DNA of 64,000 bases, taken from positions 7,062,932 through 7,126,931 of the forward strand of contig CM057138.1 of assembly GCA_029964075.1 (NCBI GenBank), read 5' to 3'. The translations under genes and the position numbers were made by a program. Below the pieces are notes generated by a model. The model saw only the letters and a program-made list of their open reading frames with translations, was not told the DNA's origin and did not search any database. Within the stretch, counting starts at the first letter, position 1. Each line of letters begins with the position of its first letter. Positions 3,830 through 43,417 of this stretch are shown here, one piece after another. Source of the stretch: Patiria pectinifera (taxonomy: Eukaryota > Echinodermata > Asteroidea > Valvatida > Asterinidae).

Positions 3830-4760
3830 AGTAATGAGCTTTCAAGATATCTCCAAACATTTCAATATAGTTCCAAGAATTTTAAGATATCTCTAAACAT
3901 TTGATATTTTAAAAAGCCCTGGGAGATTATTTCGAGATATCTTGAAATGGATTTCACGATAACTCAGAATCAATTTCAAGATATCGCTCAATGCATTTCA
4001 AGATAATTATCTTTAAATCCATTTCCAGATATCTCGAAATACATTTCACAATATGTCTAAATCCATTTCAAAATATCTCGAAATTCCTTTCAAGTTATCT
4101 TGAAATCAATTTCAAGATATTTTGAAATCAAATTCACGATATCTTAAAATCGTTTTCGCTTCCGTGTCATGCATCAGTTATTAGTCATTCTGTATGGCGC
4201 GCATCATGAGTGACATTTTATTCCCATCAAAAATGTCGTTGATGCATTTAGAGATATTTTTATCAAATGCATTTCAAGATATCTCTGAAAACATTTTCAG
4301 ATATTTTGAAATACATTCAGTTATATCTCTAAATTATTAAGTTATATCTTAAAATCGTTTTACGATATCTAGAAATCAGTTTCGAGATATCTTGATTCGT
4401 TTTCAAAATATCTTTAGAGTTAATATCTCGAGACATCTTGAAATCGATTTTGGTTCGAGATATCTTGAAACCGATTTAAAAGATATCTCGAAACAATTAC
4501 CCAGTGGCTTTTCAATTGTCAAAATGTATAGAGCAATCTTGAATAATCAAAAGTTATAACGTTTTAACTTGAATAATTGGCGCATTAAGCGCGCCATGAT
4601 TCAGTCTGGCCCTTCCCCTGACAGTGCTTGCACTATGACACTGGCGAAAGTGAAATCGATTTAAATATATCTCGAAACGATTACAGGATATCTTTGAATG
4701 TATTTCAAGAACTGCATTTGAATGTATTTCAAATCTCTGAACGACATCGTTGATGTGAAT
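3830..4760. repeat. Degenerate GATATC satellite-like array
   Basis: Dozens of copies of a roughly 21-22 bp unit of the form AAATCNATTTCAAGATATCT. The core ATTTCAAGATATCTTGAAAT is its own reverse complement, so the array can pair with itself on either strand. Copies are well diverged. The array is interrupted by non-repeat DNA at 4160-4250 and 4545-4655. Confidence 0.85.
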
Positions 4761-7218: not shown

Positions 7219-7249
7219 GGAAGCCCGTTCGTGCCAGGTTTTAAGGTGA

Positions 7250-7770
7250 AAATATATTTTTGTTGCGAAATTTGCAAAGTAACGCAATAGTTTTGCGAAT
7301 TAACGCAAAAGTATTGCGAAATAACGCAATGATAGTGCGAATTAACGCAATAAATTTGTTGCGAATACATTTATTGCGAAATAACGCAATAGTATTGCGA
7401 AACAACGCAATAGTATTGCGAATTAACGCAATAAATTTATAGCGAAATAACGCAATTGTTTCGCAAAATAACGCAATAGTTTTGCAAATTAACGCAAAAG
7501 TATTGCGAAATAACGCAACGATAGTGCGAATTAACGCAATAAATTTGTTGCGAATACATTTATTGCGAAATAACGCAATAGTATTGCGAAACAACGCAAT
7601 AGTATTGCGAATTAACGCAATAAATTTATAGCGAAATAACGCAATAGTTTCGCGAAATAACGCAATAGTATTGCGAATTAACGCAATAAATTTATTGTGA
7701 AATAACGCAATAGTATCGGCGAAAAACGCAATACTTATTGCGAAATAACGCAATACTGTCGTGTACAAAC
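7250..7770. repeat. Tandem array of AATAACGCAATAGTATTGCG-type monomers with higher-order repeat
   Basis: Units alternate GCGAAATAACGCAATA and GCGAATTAACGCAATA; the junction CGCAATAGTATTGCG is nearly palindromic. A larger unit of about 190 bp repeats once: the block starting near 7288 recurs near 7476 with few changes. The minus strand is open for 175 codons (7241-7768), but only because the repeat lacks stops in that frame. It is not a gene. Confidence 0.9.
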
Positions 7771-7970
7771 TTCACCTCGGGTGTTCAGTTTAGACTTTAT
7801 TTGTCCATTTTGATGAAATATTCTTGAAGTTCCTGTCCGTCATTGCGTTTTTATTTTCGTGGACGGTTTTGCCTCGGGGAGGGGGAGGCGGGGTGCTGAA
7901 AACAATTAGGCCTATGTTTGATCTTGTCAGAAAACGTTGACATAAAATAAAATTCTGTGGCATATTTACT

Positions 7971-12314: not shown

Positions 12315-12672
12315 CTCTATAGTCCAAAGGTTCGTTAGTCCGAAGGTTCGTTAGTCCGAAGGTTCGTTAGTCCGAAAATAGAGTATAGCTTAAATAGTCC
12401 CATTGACGATAAAGTTCGATAGTCCGAATCGACAGTAGGTTCAACAGTTCGAATATACAGCATTGAACCTTATTGTCAATACTGAAACTTGTGTGCTTTC
12501 GGATACATGAACATTCGGACTATTGAACCTTGTTTTCATTTCGGACTTCTGAACCTTCGGATTATCGAACCTTCGGATTATCGAACCTTCGGACTAACGA
12601 ACCTTCGGACTATCACATCAAATGCTCGGATTAACTAACCTTATTTCATTTTTGGAATAATGAACCCTCGGG
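12315..12672. mobile_element. Foldback MITE built of GGTTCGTTAGTCCGAA units
   Basis: The left end has three tandem copies of the 16-mer AAGGTTCGTTAGTCCG (12327-12378). The right end has four or five copies of the reverse complement (12540-12615). Diverged copies fill the centre. The whole is one imperfect palindrome. A TA dinucleotide flanks ATAGTCC on the left but the true ends are uncertain; a weaker repeat (CTCGGATTAACTAACC) extends the right side to about 12672. Confidence 0.75.
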
Positions 12673-18570: not shown

Positions 18571-18762
18571 ACTCGAGTCAATGACTCGACTCGAGTCCGA
18601 CTCGAGTCACTTTTTTTGGCGACTCGACTCGACTCGAGTCCCGACGGGTAAATGACTCGACTCGACTCGAGTCACTGCGAGCAAATGACTCGACTCGACT
18701 CGAGTCCCTCATCAGAATGACTCGACTCGACTCGAGGAAGGCTAATAAGACTCGAGTCCCAA
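18571..18762. repeat. GACTCGACTCGAGTC array, left arm of hAT-like element
   Basis: Iterated ATGACTCGACTCGACTCGAG units, each ending in the palindrome GACTCGAGTC. A similar array forms the right arm at about 19385-19555. Confidence 0.9.
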
Positions 18763-19384
18763 AAAATAAAAGCAAAACTTATTTGCGAAAAATATTTGCA
18801 ATGACTTACGCCGCGCCGTTCGCGTTGCAAGTTTTTGTTCACGTCACGTTAATGTTCGCGAATAATGTACGTTCATATACAGCGGCCGTCTGTTTTCCTT
18901 CCTCCATAATGATACAACAAACATACACCGTGTCGCGGACTCCCACCTTGTGGTTCTATCTATAGCATGTAATGCTAAACCCGGAACCAGACTTAAAACG
19001 CATTTCTCAATCCGTGGTTTCATCATTGGTTTTGGGCGATTTTGAAGTTCTTGGTGGAACGCTGGCTAAATTTATGTCCCGATTTCACAAAACAAATGGA
19101 TACGGACGGGCCCACCTTTAAATAATCAGAAACAGTTTTGTATAATGCAATTAGGTTTTGACGTTGTCAGCGATCAGCGAACAACAAAATCTAGACCCGA
19201 AGCCAAACCAGTTATAAGACCGAAGTTTCACATCTTCTTATCTGTGATGCAATGGAAACTGTTGGTTGGGTACCATACAGCATACTTTATGTCTTTGGAT
19301 TTTCGTAATAGACTGGTGCCTTGTATTTCTCTCTTGTGTGTGTTGCTTTTTATTGTAATTTATTATATAGTGTTCAAATGTTTG

Positions 19385-19555
19385 TGACTCGAATTGACTC
19401 GAGCTAAATACTTGACTCGACTCGACTCGACTCGACCACACTCTGTGACTCGACTCGACTCGACTCGACCTTGTTGACCTAATGACTCGACTCGACTCGA
19501 GTCACTTCTTTAAAATGACTCGACTCGACTCGAGTCACAACAATCAGTGACTCGT
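19385..19555. repeat. GACTCGA array, right arm of hAT-like element
   Basis: Same unit as the left arm, with runs of up to four or five tandem GACTC/CGACT words. Because the unit is palindromic, the two arms are both direct and inverted repeats of each other. Confidence 0.9.
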
Positions 19556-31262: not shown

Positions 31263-31854
31263 ATTTTTTTTCTCACAAGTCTTTCGACAACCCTGAGTAA
31301 ACATTGTTTATGAAGTTACGTTGGAGAAAGACAATGACAATGTTTTGCCAATTAAATGAACAGCAATCCTAAAACACTCAAGAAGCATATCGTAAGTTTG
31401 AGTAGGCCTATTTAAAAAAAAAAAAAATAGTTCGACGAAAAAAAAATTGAAATCTTACTGTTTTCAGTATACGGGGTTTCATTGAGGTCCAATTAAAAGT
31501 GAAATCCCCTTCATTATGAAAAGGTGCCGCGCGTTAAGCATAAGAGTAAGTAAACCCCCTTTCTAATTAGTCTCATATCCAAAAGGGAAATTTCTCACAT
31601 TCTTGACATCACATCGTAATCGTGTAGAAGTCCACTTGTTATTTTATGAAGGGGCTATGATGGAGAATTTTAGAGGGTTGTGTCGTGGAGGGCAACATCT
31701 GAACCTTCGCTGTATCCCAACTCTTTTAGCGATATATCATTTTTCTTCCGTTACCTATTTTCCTGGAATCAATATCACCAGAATGTGGCCTCTTTGGTGC
31801 ATGTTAATTTAGATGAAAACAAAGATGCCATCAGACACAAAACGGAGCGTCGCA
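31263..31854. other. Unassigned non-coding DNA
   Basis: A and T runs at 31413-31448; nothing else recognised. Confidence 0.5.
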
Positions 31855-32767
31855 TGTGGGTCCGTGTACATACCGTCCAATCAGTTACCGTTTGAAAATT
31901 GTCAAAAGAAAAATGAAAAACGAACCCTTTACCGTTTACCCTATTATTATCTTGGTACAGAAACAGAAAACGGAAATCGTTTACCAATTACTGTTTATGC
32001 GTCTGAAAAACGAAAACAGAAAAACAAACCGTGTTTTACCGTTTAGCGTTTTTGAATCTGTAAAACAGAAAAAAAGAAAAAGCAAACCCTTTTCCATTTT
32101 TGTTTTTGAATTTTGAACTGAAAAATGAAAAAGCAAACCCTTTACCAATGTTTGTTTTTGAAATTTTGAAAAGAAAAAAGAAAAAAGAAAACCCTTTACC
32201 AATTTTTGTTTTTGAATTTTTAAAAAGAAAAAGAAACCCCTTTGCCAATTTTTGTTTTGAAATTTTTGAACAAAAAAAAGAAAAAGCAAACTCTTTACCA
32301 GTTACCGTTTTTGAATTTTAAAAAGAAACAAAGGAAAAACAAACCCTTTATCGTACACCGTTTTGGAGTCTGTGTTAAGAAAAAGGGACAACGCATCGAG
32401 TTACAGCATTCCGTTTTTGATGCGTACAAAACAAAATCATCAATCGTTTTCCTTTGTATACAATTAACATTATGTAAATAAACGCAGCACACTCATATCT
32501 GTTTCATTTTGTTTCACTGAAACACAAACAACTAAAAACTAAGACAACATTTTCTTTGCCAAAACAAAAACGAAAAACAGGATAATCGAAAAAGGAAAAA
32601 AAACCGAAACCTGTTACTAGTCTAAGCCCAACGAAACCCGAGTGCGGCCGAGTTCGTCAGAAAGTGTTTCCTGTGAAAAAAACTTGTCCACGGGGCTTGG
32701 CGGGAACTCATGCGCGACCATGGATTATGACGGGCATGCACATGTTTACTGTACTTGCTGTAATCTT
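31855..32767 (+). repeat. Left arm of a 2.7-kb inverted repeat
   Basis: Near-exact reverse complement of 33570-34533. The outer part begins GGGTCCGTGTACATACCG. The middle (about 31920-32360) is a tandem series of roughly 45-60 bp A/T-rich units built on AAACCCTTTACCAATTTTTG followed by a TTTTTGAATTTT block and an A-rich block. The inner 80 bp, around GCGCGACCATGGATTATGAC, match the other arm with about one mismatch. Open frames on both strands are repeat translations. Confidence 0.95.
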
Positions 32768-33569
32768 TATTATATATTATTTATATAAAAAAGCAGTACT
32801 ACACCGAGCCCAGGCCTAGGCCCTAGTACTCAAATTATGAACAATAATCTATGCTATGGAGCCTAAATATTATTTTCGAATATGTCATTCCTACACTTTT
32901 TTGATGTGGTTTTGTAGAAAATAACTACAACAAATGATTTAATAGTTTTTATGTAGAGTCTGTTGGAATTGGCAAACCAAATAAAAATGTATGCATGGGT
33001 TTTTTTAGACTGTGATTTAAGTGTGATTATTTTTACAAACCCCAAAAAGGGCAGAACTGATATGATTAAAATGCTGTCAAGTCACATTTGTCAAAATCTT
33101 TTTCATTTGTCATTATTTCAATCAAGGCATGTGGCAATTATGATTTCAAAAATTGTGATATTTGAACATAAATCGAGCAGTATCAATGTGGACCAAACAA
33201 AAATCCAAATTTTAATGAAAATTTCCTATTCAGACTATACGGTCTCCAAAAGAAAAGCGCCCTTGCATATTTTCTAATGCGATTACCTAGGCCCAATAAT
33301 AACAAAATAATTTGTTTTTTTACCTAGGCCTAATAATAACAAAATAATTTGGGGTTTTTTGAAATTTTACTGTAAAACTACAAGTAGGCCTAAAAACAAA
33401 TACGTACCTGAAAAATATGGCTATATCTCATGTCTTCCTCTCTTAAAGAAAGGCGTTTAGTCCCTCTGCACAAAACAAAGTTGTTAATTCCAAACAATTC
33501 TTCACACACGCACACAAAAACAGCACAAAAGTTACTATAATAAGACAAAGTAAAGAAGGGGCCTAAAGA
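32768..33569. other. Spacer (loop) of the inverted repeat
   Basis: About 800 bp, AT-rich, no gene recognised. It contains a tandem duplication of about 37 bp (CCTAGGCCYAATAATAACAA, at 33286 and 33323). Confidence 0.7.
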
Positions 33570-34533
33570 GATTACAGCAAGTACAGTAAACATGTGCATG
33601 CCCGTCATAATCCATGGTCGCGCATGAGTTCCCGCCATGCCCCGTGGACAAGTTTTTTTCACAGGAAACACTTTCTGACGAACTCGGCCGCACTCGGGTT
33701 TCGTTGGGCTTAGACTAGTAACAGGTTTCGTTTTTTTTTTCCTTTTCCGGTTACCCTGTTTTTCGTTTTTGTTTTGGCAAAGAAAATGTTGTCTTAGTTT
33801 TTAGTTGTTTGTGTTTCAGTGAAACAAAATGAAACAGATATGAGTGTGCTGCGTTTATTTACATAATGTTAATTGTATACAAAGGAAAACGATTGATGAT
33901 TTTGTTTTGTACGCATCAAAAACGGAATGCTGTAACTCGATGCGTTGTCCCTTTTTCTTAACGCAGACTCCAAAACGGTGTACGATAAAGGGTTTGTTTT
34001 TCCTTTGTTTCTTTTAAAAATTCAAAAACGGTAACTGGTAAAGGGTTGCTTTTTCTTTTTTTTGTTCAAAAATTTCAAAACAAAAATTGGCAAAGGGGTT
34101 CCTTTTTCTTTTTAAAAATTCAAAAACAAAAAATTGGTAAAGGGTTTGCTTTTTCTTTTTTCTTTTCAAAAATTCAAAAACAAAAATTGGTAAAGGGTTT
34201 GCTTTTTCATTTTTCTTTTCAAAACTTCAAAAACAAACATTGGTAAAGGGTTTGCATTTTCATTTTTCTTTTCAAAACTTCAAAAACAAAAATGGGAAAA
34301 GGGTTTGCTTATTCTTTTTTCTGTTTTACAGATTCAAAAACGCTAAACGGTAAAACACGGTTTGTTTTTCTGTTTTCGTTTTTCAGACGCATAAACAGTA
34401 ACTGGTAAACGATTTCCGTTTTCTGTTTCTGTACCAAGATAATAATAGGGTAAACGGTAAAGGGTTCGTTTTTCATTTTTCTTTTGACAATTTTCAAACG
34501 GTAACTGATTGGACGGTATGTACACGGACCCAT
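33570..34533 (-). repeat. Right arm of a 2.7-kb inverted repeat
   Basis: Inverted copy of 31855-32767. It is about 50 bp longer because the number of AAACCCTTTACC units differs. It ends at CGGACCCATGTGC; homology stops abruptly there. No transposase frame in either arm. Confidence 0.95.
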
Positions 34534-37500
34534 GTGCCTCAGCCTGGTCAGCATCGCAGGAAATTGACTGATGACATGCATCGACTGGACGCCTTTGTGT
34601 AGTCCTTGATTCCTTTAAAAACATGAAAAGTTCTTTGTACGAAAGCTTGAATTTTTTGGCCAAATTTTTCTTTTTCGTTTTGATGTGTGTCTATTCCACT
34701 TATTCTCAGTCTTATGGTTTTTAATTGGGCTTGAATAATGTTTTTATTGTAAGCACTTTTTAAAGCAGAAAGTGTAAATACCATGAGGATGTGTCAATAA
34801 AGTAATGTAAATCTAAAATTTTAATTAAATTCCTTTAAATATGACTATAGCGTTTAAAAGAATATTCTCCTCACTATATTTAAAGTTGTCACCACCATTG
34901 ATTAATTTGATTGTAATCCACTCCCCTAGCAGTATAGCTGTCCTCCAAACCGTGTTTGAATATTATGTGTATTCTCTTCCATTCCCCAGATGTTTTCAGT
35001 ACGAAATCGTGCTGTTTTGATCTCCGATCTCTCTTATCCAGCGCCAGCTATCCCGCCGGCACATCATCACGTCGTCTCGCCAGTTATTCCTTTCTCACTG
35101 TCTCCCGGAGATTTGTCGTCTTCCCTTGTCCACTCTGTCCCTCCGATCATCCGTGCCCGAGCCCGTGTTGTCTTCCTACAGTCAATCTCATTTTCAATTA
35201 CACGGTGTATGAGCCCCCAACTGCCCGCGGCAGTCAGGACAGGATCTAACTTGGACGCACGATCTCTCACCTCCTCCATTTGCATATTGTAACTTCTTCA
35301 GTCAAATACCCCGCACCGGCTTACTCTGCTTTCGTACCCTGATAATAGCAACACAAGTGAAAAATTAGTCGGAGTGCATATTACAAATATAATGCTAGAG
35401 AAAAATGACCGAAAAGGGCGTCAACAAAGCCCCATTACAACAAATCTTTAAAAGTTTTTCTACCTTTTTTAAGCTAAGCATATAGCGGAACTGATACAGT
35501 CGGACAGATGGAGTTGGCAGATGCGGCGGGGGCGAGATGGCCGTTGAGACCCGCCGGCAATCCGCCTCCGCGCCCGCTCGCTTTCCTTCCTCACCTCGCT
35601 CTACGCCGTACTGAACTCCCCAAAGACTCATCAAGAACGAGAGGTAAATTGCAAGTTGAGGAGGCGATCATGAAGCGGGCAGTTTGCATTATAGGCTCAC
35701 CCAACTCTCTTCTCCCGTTCTCTCTCTCAGTGTCTTCTAGTCCCCTATCTTCTCTGTCTTGCTCTGAGCGATTTGGAGTGACTCCACGGTGGAGATCACA
35801 TGCACATTAGAACCTCTTCAAGGCTGACATTAGGAGGTGTTTTTTTGTCATTTGCCCAAGGAATGAGATTGTCAGAAGTGATTTCACGCGAGCGGATGAC
35901 TCCGGCTGTACTATATAGTCTCCTTGCAATCTCTGTGCCCAGTTCGATACACTTGCTTACAGAATCTATCTTCGAGATCTAAAAGGTCGAGGTATAAACC
36001 AAAAGTCAGTATAAATTGTGAGCAGATCTTATATACGCCACAAAGAGCGCACCAGCGTAGCAATCGGTAGAGGGGGGGGGGAGGAGGGGGCGCCATGCAC
36101 CTGATTCTATGGGGCTCTGTTCAAACGTGTACACCGTGTACGCATGTACACATAATTATACGCGTTGTGCGCCCATTCCGCCTGGTATTTACTGTTGAAT
36201 ACGTTAAAGGATTTTAGATGAAGGCCAACGACCCAACATAATACAAGTATATGTGCAGGATTAAGTAACAAAAAAACACTACACAATTTGTGTAATGGTT
36301 TTTAAGCTACGTCAAAACAAAAAATAAGAAATGCGCGTTAACTAAATTAATCAACCTATTTTAAAATTAAGAAAGTTATATGATCAGACTTAATGAGTCA
36401 ACGGCGAGGCCATGCTGAGCCAGGAAATGAACAGGTACCGCTCCAGGCTCGAACCCAGCAACCTGCGTCGTGCAAAGTAGGTCCTATACGAGAACGTGGA
36501 CAAATGGGTAAATCCCCAATGAAGCTTGCAATCAATTGTATTTCTAAAAAAATATATATATATAATTTGGCACAATGATTTACTGCCCAATTTATTTAGA
36601 TTATCTGATACAAACGCTGAGATACTAAACCAAGATGGCGGCGGTATGATTACATGTTTGGGACAGTGCTATCTAACCCCGATAACCTCACAATAACACC
36701 GTGAATAGGTCTGATACCTCCCCTCATGATCATTTAATTACACTGACATCTGTTTCTCTCATTCGGACATCATTTATTTTCTCTTTCATCCACCACCGCT
36801 CTTGTTGAAAATTAACGGAGTGTACAGAGCCGATCATAAAGCGGCGAATTGGCCGTCTAAATTGACGTAAAGCGATCCAGTTGGTACGAGGCAAAGTTTG
36901 GTGTTTGGATTATCATGTTTTAAAAGAGTAGAAGCCTAGAAAAGAAGACGAGGATAGGACTCGCTGCGTTTCAGTTCGGTTGCTGATGTATCGCGCTCGA
37001 CTAAGCCTAGCGGGGCTAGATCGAGTTTCGAGCCAGTCTGCCGCTCGCCCGTATGCACGGTCGGATCCAATCCTCCAGCCTAATTGTGGTATTAAATGGG
37101 TGTTTATGACTTCGCTTCGGTCGGGTTTTTAAGCGGGTGAGATCCTGCACGTTTTTAGTTACAGCCTGCCCGGTTTCGCCTCAGTGAGCGCTGGCGATAA
37201 TGAAGCCGATCTCAACATAAACACTCGTTGGAGAAAAAAATGTCCCTCGATTTGAAAACCAATATAATTGCAAGTTATTCCTACAGTTCTGATCCAATTA
37301 CCCATGTTTATCATTTTATTAAGGTGGGATATCGGACAGTAAACAGCCTGTACTAAAAAAAAAAAAAAACACTAGAAAAAGTTGCGTGCAATAACTCCGT
37401 TTTCAATAATAACACCACTCAAAATCCAAAGAAGAATGTTCACAACCTAACCTGTTGAAGTTACAGCTCAGTGGATATTACACTTTTCGAGAAAACAGTG

Positions 37501-40735: not shown

Positions 40736-40908
40736 TTACGGGTACCCGTCGCCGTAGCGGTCATGACGTACCCGTGTAATATTATTGTAATAAATAAAGA
40801 AATTATAATATCGGTTTTCCTAGTAACTTAAAAAACTTGTATCATTTAAATGCTACAGAAAGATACATTAATTTTGTTCTAGAACGTCGTTCCATATTTA
40901 CACCAATA

Positions 40909-41463
40909 CAGGGTGGATAAAAAAAACCCGAAACCGATATATTATTGCTAATTGGAACAGAAGTAGCGCACATGTGAATCAAAGGGAGATATCCTCTGTT
41001 AGGGTTGAATCTCCTCTTTAGAATGACACCCTGATCATGTACTTGCATTCACGGTTGACTGAGCAGTGACCAATTTTATAAAAGGGTCTATTTAGAGAAT
41101 TGCGCCACTTTTCATGGTGAAATCTCTTCTTCTTCTTTCCTACCTGCCTTGATTGGCAACCATAGCCTTTCACTCTGTGACATAATGACACCACAAAAAC
41201 CACAATTGAAAAGTGGCGCAATTCTCTAAATAGACCCTTTAACCCTAACAGTCCTGAATCCTCCAATTTCTATATGATTTTGCACATCCCCTAGGGAGTT
41301 GGGGTTCCTGCTCAGTCAACCGTGAATGTAATGACATGATCAGGGTGTCATTTTAAAGAGGAGATTCAACCCTAACAGAGGAAATCTCCCTTTGATTCAC
41401 ATGTGCCCTACTTCTGTTCCAATTAGCAATAACATCTCGGTTTCGGTTTTTTTATCCACCCCG
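40909..41463. mobile_element. Tc1/mariner-like long-hairpin MITE (TSD TA)
   Basis: The end CAGGGTGGATAAAAAAAACC is mirrored by GGTTTTTTTATCCACCCCG, with TA on both sides (40907-40908, 41464-41465). The arms pair over roughly 200 bp with few mismatches, including TCTATTTAGAGAATTGCGCC against its complement at about 41216-41235, leaving a loop of about 90 bp. The right arm holds an extra 70-90 bp (about 41240-41310). Confidence 0.92.
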
Positions 41464-41465
41464 TA

Positions 41466-43417
41466 TAATTCATATTTGGTCCAGTGTACAATGTAGTTCG
41501 CGAATATAACATTCATATTCGTCCGAGTCTCGGAAATTTGTCCCATGTGGAGATTGGCGTTAAATTGAAAAAGCAAATAGTTTTTTATCATTCAGGTTAA
41601 AATTCGGTTATTCAATTTCGGTAGCGGCAAGCTGAAACATTACGGCCATATGATGTTTCTTCACTTCGATTTTTTTCAATGGTTTTCACTCTTGCTTTCC
41701 TTATTCAGTTAGAAACTTATCGAACATGAATATTCATCAGTTGTGCCTCTAAATCTATGTGCGGATGACCGTGGAACCACGTGGGACTTAGCTCATTTGC
41801 TTGAATTATTTAAAGGGTTTTTGCGGGGTTTACCACGTTTTTTTCCACGTTGTCTCTGTAAATGTAAGACATTATGTGGATTTCATTTGACCCAAACCTC
41901 TGAAATATGATAATAAAACAATCTAAAGCATGAAATTTGAGCGAAATCTGAATGTTTACCTTTAAGTCCAATTCGCATCCCTGCACTACCATGTTTCTAT
42001 CATGATCGGTTCCCGGTCAATTCAGATCAAGTATCGATTCTCCATGGTTCTTTTTCATATTCACTTTCAAAACCAGGACAAAATATTCATCATTTCCCTC
42101 AAAATTGATAAAAATTTAAGAAAAAACAAACAAACAAACAAACAAACAAACTACGACAGTGCCTTTAGTTTTGTTTTACTTTTTTTAAAGGTTTTTGCTA
42201 GGGGTGGGGTTGGGGTGGGGGTTATCACAGCACACGGTCTGTCCGCAGTCATATTGGTTCACACACACACCCACACACAAAACAAACAGGTTAGGGTTAA
42301 TTAACAGCCTCGCTAACTGGTGACATATGCCATGGACCCATTTGAGTTGTCCGGGCCCCAATTACATCGCAGACCTCACAAAAGATTCAGTGAGTCGGAA
42401 GATTTCATTCCAATATCTACATTCAGTTTGACCTTGGGACGGTTGCACTGGCTTACTTTTTCTGTATATTATATTATTCATATCTGTTTGATTTTTTTTT
42501 ATTCCGGTCAAGATTACGGGAATATTGGAGCCAAGGGGAAGGCCTGTAAACTAGGACGGGGCGATGTGGGATGGGACCCCCCCCCCCCCAGCCTTACTCG
42601 GACAATCACGCTAAAACCGCAGATCCTCGGTACTTTCTCTCATTGAATTCAATCGAACAAAGAACGTGAAGTAGTTATCATAAGTAATGGTACTGACAAA
42701 ATATGGATCATCCATTGTTTCAAAGTTGCTCCTCAACAGTTGTCAAAATACTGTCAAGGATTCCTAGCCTTTTTACGATGGGCGCACTATGTAATGTGGC
42801 TGTGGTTGACTTCGATTAAAGGGAACACAAAAGGATGGTTGTTTTTCTGAGGTGGGTCGGGATAGAAAACAGGCTAAACTTCCGTAAACTGTTCGTATAA
42901 ATGTGCACACTTTCCACCTGCTTTAATTCCCCAACATTATTGAACCCAAACTATACCTCAAACAGAGACAATCATTTATCGGCTGTCGTAATGAAGTGGT
43001 TTCTCCTGTGAAAATGTGATGATTAGAGTCTCTCTGGAATTAATTATTTGATGGTTGCTATTGTTACAGTAGTCGATATTCGTGCCAGCGTGAACTCTTT
43101 CACCAGGCTGACGCATGTACAGAGAAATTGATTTGCAGTCAGACAGGCAGACAGTGTATCTGATCAGAAACATGTGGGTTTTTTTTGTCTGATGAAATTA
43201 AGTCCAGAGAAAAGCCTTTTTCCAGAATTGACTCCTGACTTGTTCTTTACTCAGAATCGCCATATTGGAACCGGAGGCTGCAATTGCAAAAAAAAAGACA
43301 TTGGAGCCTCATAGGTCATGAGCCTTGCTAACTTTTTACCCCATTCAAGTGGCTGAAGCTTGCCACTAAGCCTCTTCTTTCAACCCAACTCTACAAAGGG
43401 GTCATGACCTAACGTAA
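41466..43417. other. Unassigned non-coding DNA
   Basis: Includes an (AAAC)n microsatellite (42125-42151), a GTGGGG/CA-rich patch (42200-42290) and a C13 run (42577-42589). No gene recognised. Confidence 0.45.
42125..42151. repeat. (AAAC)n microsatellite
   Basis: About six perfect tandem copies of AAAC. Confidence 0.9.

Follow-up and report, generated by a model that had tools for sequence, protein, structure and literature searches.

The 2.7-kb inverted repeat in the 64,000-nucleotide stretch of the Patiria pectinifera genome analysed here (contig CM057138.1; hereafter the window) is almost certainly one copy of a non-autonomous foldback, or long terminal inverted repeat (TIR), family of DNA transposons. 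Its structural class is that of a foldback: long TIRs with tandem repeats surround a variable middle, and there are a target-site duplication (TSD), dispersed copies and a common boundary. The family is well represented and looks recent, and the length of its TSD is unlike that of the foldback families with which it was compared. Two of 21 copies (L017 and L018) hold host-like coding DNA; the window copy is not among them.

Structure of the element in the window

The inverted repeat occupies positions 31859-34530 of the window. Its arms, 908 bp on the left (31859-32766, forward strand) and 962 bp on the right (33569-34530, reverse strand), are 96.6% identical without gaps; their alignment contains 876 matches, 31 mismatches, one 54-column gap that corresponds to one tandem unit, and two 1-column gaps. 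A preliminary description of this DNA had correctly reported arms of more than 900 bp and had placed the element at 31855-34533; the element itself stands, with each end off by three to four bases. It had also begun the tip with GGGTCC; the actual start is GGTCC, the extra G being the last base of the TSD CATGTG, a 6-mer present on both sides of the element (31853-31858 and 34531-34536). It is the longest inverted repeat within the window (966 bp aligned, 92.4% identity including gaps), and the longest one listed outside it, among repeats of at least 150 bp at E 1e-10, measures 206 bp at 70%. A second inverted repeat of 161 bp and 93% identity, at 40906-41066 and 41308-41466 with a 241-bp spacer, is possibly a small MITE.

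The left arm opens with the outer tip GGTCCGTGTACATACCGTCCAATCAGTTACCGT (31859-31891, forward strand); its right-arm counterpart, on the reverse strand at 34498-34530, ends CACGGACC. The internal tandem units of the preliminary description are real and measure ~53 bp, with the core AAACCCTTTACC; Tandem Repeats Finder places them at 32048-32350 in the left arm (forward strand) and, with one unit more, at 33972-34341 in the right arm (reverse strand). Allowing up to two substitutions in the core, the two arms contain eight and nine units. Inward of the arrays lie non-repetitive arm segments, at 32351-32766 on the forward strand and at 33569-33985 on the reverse strand. These are 98% identical to each other (BLAST, gaps included), in keeping with the earlier estimate of about one mismatch in 80 bp, while the other 38 matches listed for the left segment reach 89-91% on the same measure.

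The 802-bp middle (32767-33568) is without recognised coding sequence; parts of it are common to family copies of 3.2-4.9 kb, at ~91% identity. The window copy has no recognisable gene, and the window as a whole has no Rfam or tRNA match. Elsewhere, the window contains several tandem arrays: ~22-bp units of ATTTCAAGATATCTCGAAATCC, partly palindromic and with an inverted self-match (3840-4543); ~21-bp near-palindromic units of TTTGCGAAATAACGCAATAGT with a 189-bp higher-order repeat at 95% (7241-7771); 16-bp repeats of TTCGGACTATCGAACC and their relatives (12320-12614); and two arrays of ~33-bp units based on GACTCGACTCGACTCGAG (18585-19538).

A dispersed family with 6-bp target-site duplications

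The preliminary description proposed a genome search for the outer tip and named a foldback-type element as one possibility; the search finds dispersed copies sharing a common boundary, and the foldback assignment is supported by arms that share one boundary genome-wide. In the 613.5-Mb assembly (1020 contigs), a search for the 20-base tip that allows two mismatches gives 98 occurrences, including 80 exact ones; a reversed-pattern control occurs five times. The 98 tips form 32 facing pairs within 20 kb, spanning 1,058 to 16,518 bp, some of which are nested or share an end. Twenty tip pairs together with the window copy make up the set of 21 complete copies studied below. Viral contigs contain no exact match to the tip.

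An exact 6-bp TSD flanks 14 of these 21 copies, and 16 are flanked when one mismatch is allowed. Cross-paired, mismatched flanks agree at 6 bp in 0 of 420 combinations, and no copy of the 21 has an exact flank match at 3-5 or 7-11 bp. The target-site sequences vary among copies. Five copies (L013, L016, L024, L025 and L028) lack a TSD and so call for recombination between copies or rearrangement after insertion. Copies of Galileo without matching TSDs have been attributed to recombination between copies (PMC3573991), and by analogy the five copies here would have the same origin.

The first ~33 bases are near-invariant across all 42 ends, with termini GG..CC. In each arm, the tip is followed by the ~53-bp units and then by a unique inner segment. 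The number of units varies from 5 to 21 per arm (core AAACCCTTTACC at up to two substitutions, counted in the first 1.7 kb of each end), their spacing is mostly 52-54 bp, and the arms within a copy are usually unequal. Interiors are of two types. In the 6.6-8.9-kb class, a ~3.1-kb interior is common, wholly or largely, to 12 of 13 copies (all but L017) at ~93-99% identity and is found in either orientation relative to the tips. The second type occurs whole or in part in the seven 3.2-4.9-kb copies (L022-L028), and it is a piece of this type that the window copy contains. Private segments of at least 250 bp are present in seven of the 21 copies (L010, L013, L017, L018, L019, L023 and L028). On contig C6, three tip pairs of ~602 bp each (15696166-15696767, 15728770-15729371 and 16074922-16075524) have related but different tips, GATCCGTGTACATACTGTC on one side and GTTCCGTATACATACCGTC or a one-base variant on the other, and perhaps represent a sister family.

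The high similarity of the window arms had been taken as a sign of young duplication or continuing gene conversion, and it could be argued that the structure is simply a local inverted duplication, a palindrome kept alike by gene conversion and not mobile. The window arms are indeed each other's nearest relatives, with a mutual distance of 0.014, as compared with 0.027 and 0.037 between the right and left arms, respectively, and the nearest other arm. However, the arms belong to the whole family: among 34 inner arm segments (nine arm pieces shorter than 330 bp, from L010, L017, L018, L023 and L028, were dropped before the count), 28 have their partner in the set, and for only three of these, both window arms and one arm of L013, is the copy's own partner the nearest relative. 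The existence of dispersed copies that share this boundary and carry 6-bp TSDs also counts against an immobile palindrome, which has almost no chance of being the right explanation. General gene conversion within copies is thus not supported by the arm distances; rather, the arms look as if they had been exchanged among copies or had recently spread, and the window copy appears to stand somewhat apart from the others. Another reading would make the element a long hairpin RNA locus (a source of siRNA or piRNA, or an ADAR substrate) retained for that function. Its predicted folding energy is -1642 kcal/mol, as against -736 to -888 kcal/mol for four further segments of 2,672 bases from the window. 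In the predicted fold the left arm pairs 892 of its 908 bases with the right arm, with perfect duplex runs of up to 208 bp. Such folding is expected of any inverted repeat of this kind, however, and the sequence behaves as a transposon, which makes retention for this function very improbable; from the model fold, a role as double-stranded RNA, siRNA source or ADAR substrate is physically possible only.

Transposase search and affinities of the family

No transposase was seen inside the window element, as the preliminary description had stated, and none was recognised by eye between family tips in the 21 complete copies or in 13 further stretches (L029, L030 and L037-L047) located beside tips or inside longer tip pairs; the shortest frame listed was 80 to 130 aa, and short frames or the exons of a split gene could have gone undetected. 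In 20 of the 21 copies the longest stop-to-stop frame has 136-241 aa, and the remaining copy has the G-protein-coupled receptor (GPCR) frame described below. Thirty frame entries were run against Pfam. Nine interior frames of L009 have no Pfam match at the cut-off, with three weak matches below it. Ten frames from the private segments of L010, L017, L018, L019 and L028 include nine without a match at the cut-off and one, in L018, with a match to TatD DNase; the private segments of L013 and L023 have no frame of 70 aa or more.

Some of the longer stretches contain unrelated insertions. In L030 (C4:6335500-6344500), a Ty3/gypsy-like retrotransposon with a long open pol frame is nested in a foldback copy, and L038 has nested non-LTR frames, both named by eye. 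L043 (C13:11607900-11616000) has outer tips with a 5-of-6 TSD (TACTCG/TACTTG) and a 6.4-kb insert, which was considered as a gene capture and rejected: it is a repeat of high copy number that is unrelated to the family, and 49 pieces, itself included, match a 4-kb query taken from the insert, at 79-100%. L037, L039 and L040 were likewise considered as carriers of a second interior type and rejected as truncated copies that share only ~90, 27 and 270 bp with the family.

The closest counterpart in mode is Tetris of Drosophila virilis, a non-autonomous element that also has long TIRs with internal tandem repeats and a variable middle without apparent protein-coding capacity, and for which no transposase is reported; its TSD is 8-10 bp, not 6 bp, and its host is another organism (PMC4079207). 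Galileo, of the P superfamily, is alike in its long repetitive TIRs, in arms that differ in unit number and in chimeric copies with mismatched TSDs, and unlike in its 7-bp TSD and in the transposase sequence that some copies hold (PMC3573991). Tm1, a Mutator/foldback element of root-knot nematodes, has composite TIRs of tandem units and several size classes as well; 45 of 53 copies have flanking TSDs of 8-10 bp, but these are mostly 9 bp, the units are 13-15 bp and a transposase-encoding group is known (PMC3169594). For MULE-type foldbacks, the TSD is given as 8-10 bp (PMC4079207, PMC3169594). The 6-bp TSD of the starfish family therefore lies outside both the Mutator/MULE and the P-superfamily ranges. 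The MULE range extends to 11 bp, and TSDs in the P superfamily reach up to 8 bp. Among echinoderms, the TU elements of sea urchins have long inverted repeats with an outer tandem-repeat domain, an 8-bp TSD and 15-bp units. PMC4079207 refers to a foldback from a sea urchin (Lieberman et al. 1983).

Several other superfamilies have a TSD of similar length. Dada elements have TSDs of 6-7 bp but target small-RNA genes, and TIRs are reported as not found in the U6 and U1 families (PMC3706591); the TSDs here are varied and the TIRs long. IS3EU and GingerRoot produce a 6-bp TSD, but end in TA..TA, GingerRoot occasionally in TG..CA (PMC10045372), whereas the ends here are GG..CC. Polinton/Maverick elements have polymerase, integrase and capsid genes; here, 20 of the 21 copies have no stop-to-stop frame longer than 241 aa and the other has the GPCR, a pattern that a derivative stripped of its genes might also show. 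The combination of a 6-bp TSD with GG..CC ends matches none of the superfamily definitions compared.

These comparisons bear on whether the family belongs with the fly foldbacks FB/Tetris and Galileo in the Mutator (MULE) or P superfamily. Long, internally repetitive TIRs, a variable middle, arms of unequal unit number and copies without matching TSDs all occur in those elements (PMC4079207, PMC3573991), and the genome has P-like frames as long as 748 aa: seven of 71 P-like transposase matches have open frames longer than 700 aa, several with identical scores, and recent P-like activity in this genome is suggested by these sequences. Against such membership, the TSD is 6 bp rather than 8-10 or 7 bp, and the candidate transposases lie far from the family: the nearest of 30 matches to MULE profiles (all 63 candidates scored) is 112 kb from any of the 98 tips at up to two mismatches, and for the 71 P-like matches (all 88 candidates scored) the smallest distance to a listed tip is 98.9 kb. 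In a 4.3-kb piece around one P-like copy, whose ends may lie outside the piece, the only match to 16 tip bases has five mismatches and falls inside the reading frame. Membership in either superfamily is thus rather unlikely. A deletion derivative of a larger integrase-type element with a 6-bp TSD, such as Polinton/Maverick or IS3EU/GingerRoot, would account for the TSD length, which is recorded for Polinton, IS3EU and GingerRoot (PMC10045372); the same source gives TA..TA as the ends of IS3EU, as against GG..CC. The size of the largest tip pair, 16.5 kb, is explained in part by the nested Ty3/gypsy-like retrotransposon of L030. Polintons have long TIRs, and their ends are AG... An origin from such an element is improbable, and the family is best described as a foldback. 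No description of it was found among the titles and abstract openings listed in searches of open-licence literature, and a search on the capture of chemoreceptor genes by elements of this type listed a single paper, on a mosquito genome; as far as can be told, the family itself, its 6-bp TSD and its cargoes are new.

Host-like cargoes and a possible route of gene dispersal

L018 (C22:387879-396116; TSD AAGATT) has the common interior, and within it a private 1.49-kb segment. The segment replaces six bases, CACCAT, of L019 and has no duplication of its own, and so would appear to be filler and not a transposon nested in the copy. Read in reverse orientation, it has an open stretch that matches the TatD DNase profile PF01026 (E 1.1e-45, profile positions 70-253 of 253). 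C9:11115540-11117029 matches the segment from end to end at 98% identity, and a stretch of C18 matches half of it at 97%; 16 further matches are shorter or weaker, most of them limited to the first ~180 bases. No tip among the 98 listed lies near the C9 or C18 counterpart. L018 thus has the composition of a putative Pack-TIR element, with host-like sequence between tips flanked by the TSD AAGATT and, judged from the tip listing, a C9 counterpart far from any tip, which may be a host gene or part of another mobile element.

L017 (C19:22707312-22716000) is flanked on both sides by the TSD TTCAAG and lacks the common interior. It contains an intact frame of 307 codons (301 if counted from the first Met) with a match to the rhodopsin family of GPCRs (PF00001, E 5.7e-12, read from locus L031); other repeat DNA occupies part of the space between arm and cargo. 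A 1,201-base query over the frame, for which 40 of 57 candidates were scored, returned itself, a stretch of C13 at 99%, a stretch of C15 at 92% and at least 40 other pieces at 74-91%, of which 33 lie on C15 and many in a tandem array. On C15, at about 16.77-16.83 Mb, closely related rhodopsin-type GPCR sequences form a tandem array, in which two open single frames were read. Positions 3189-7163 of L017 match C15:16822618-16826235 in four pieces at 90.6-96.2%, two of which are separated by a tandem-duplicated stretch at 76-77%. Because the match includes non-coding DNA on both flanks of the frame, the cargo was copied as DNA. The 9.8 kb of C15 examined contain no tip at up to four mismatches and no match to the family copies L014 or L022. 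L017, too, therefore has host sequence between tips with a TSD, and a tipless counterpart on C15.

The C13 copy and L017 are alike at 95-98% from L017 position 2682 through to the right tip, apart from an insert of ~380 bp. They have that tip in common, beyond which the flanks are unmatched; no left arm was found in the 9.7 kb of C13 examined, and the copy lies ~5.5 kb from the contig end. The C13 copy is thus a candidate for a second transposition of the receptor cargo. The receptor frame is open in all three places (C15, L017 and C13). Between C15 and the two copies, dN/dS is 0.46 and 0.56 by NG86 and 0.60 and 0.62 by YN00; between L017 and the C13 copy, which differ at 12 positions, it is 0.96 (NG86) or 1.65 (YN00). 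A value of 0.96 between the copies gives no evidence of purifying selection on them after capture.

Gene capture by a foldback is already closely precedented by Ssk-FB4, a Pack-TIR of Drosophila melanogaster in which a foldback took in a gene of its host and carried it to several genomic sites; it differs in the 9-10-bp TSD of FB4, in the gene concerned and in that expression and protein are shown for Ssk-FB4 (PMC8277862). That work also describes filler-type uptake by TIR transposons of animals (PMC8277862). Since no transposase-encoding partner was found, a mechanism of movement can be proposed by analogy. A transposase supplied in trans would recognise the tip, with the ~53-bp subterminal units probably serving as extra binding sites, and would cut at GG/CC and insert with a 6-bp stagger. 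Arm length would change as units slip or exchange unequally, and arms would be swapped among copies by recombination. Interiors would be replaceable: host-like cargo would probably enter as a copy made in the course of repair or replication and would later insert along with the unit.

We tentatively propose that this foldback family, with an unrecognised transposase that acts on GG..CC ends and makes a 6-bp stagger, acquires host genes repeatedly, and that an intact-frame receptor gene has travelled with it to other chromosomes from a tandem array of chemoreceptor-like genes. Among the 21 copies examined, host-like coding DNA seems to have been taken up twice. Many foldback elements are without a known transposase, and their arm arrays change quickly; here, the counterpart, the carrier and, for the receptor, a further copy are found in one assembly, which makes gene capture by a hairpin element testable. 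If the proposal is correct, foldback arms would be a route for copying and dispersing receptor repertoires in this animal, and each receptor copy would be flanked by long arms able to form a hairpin, which might silence that copy as well.
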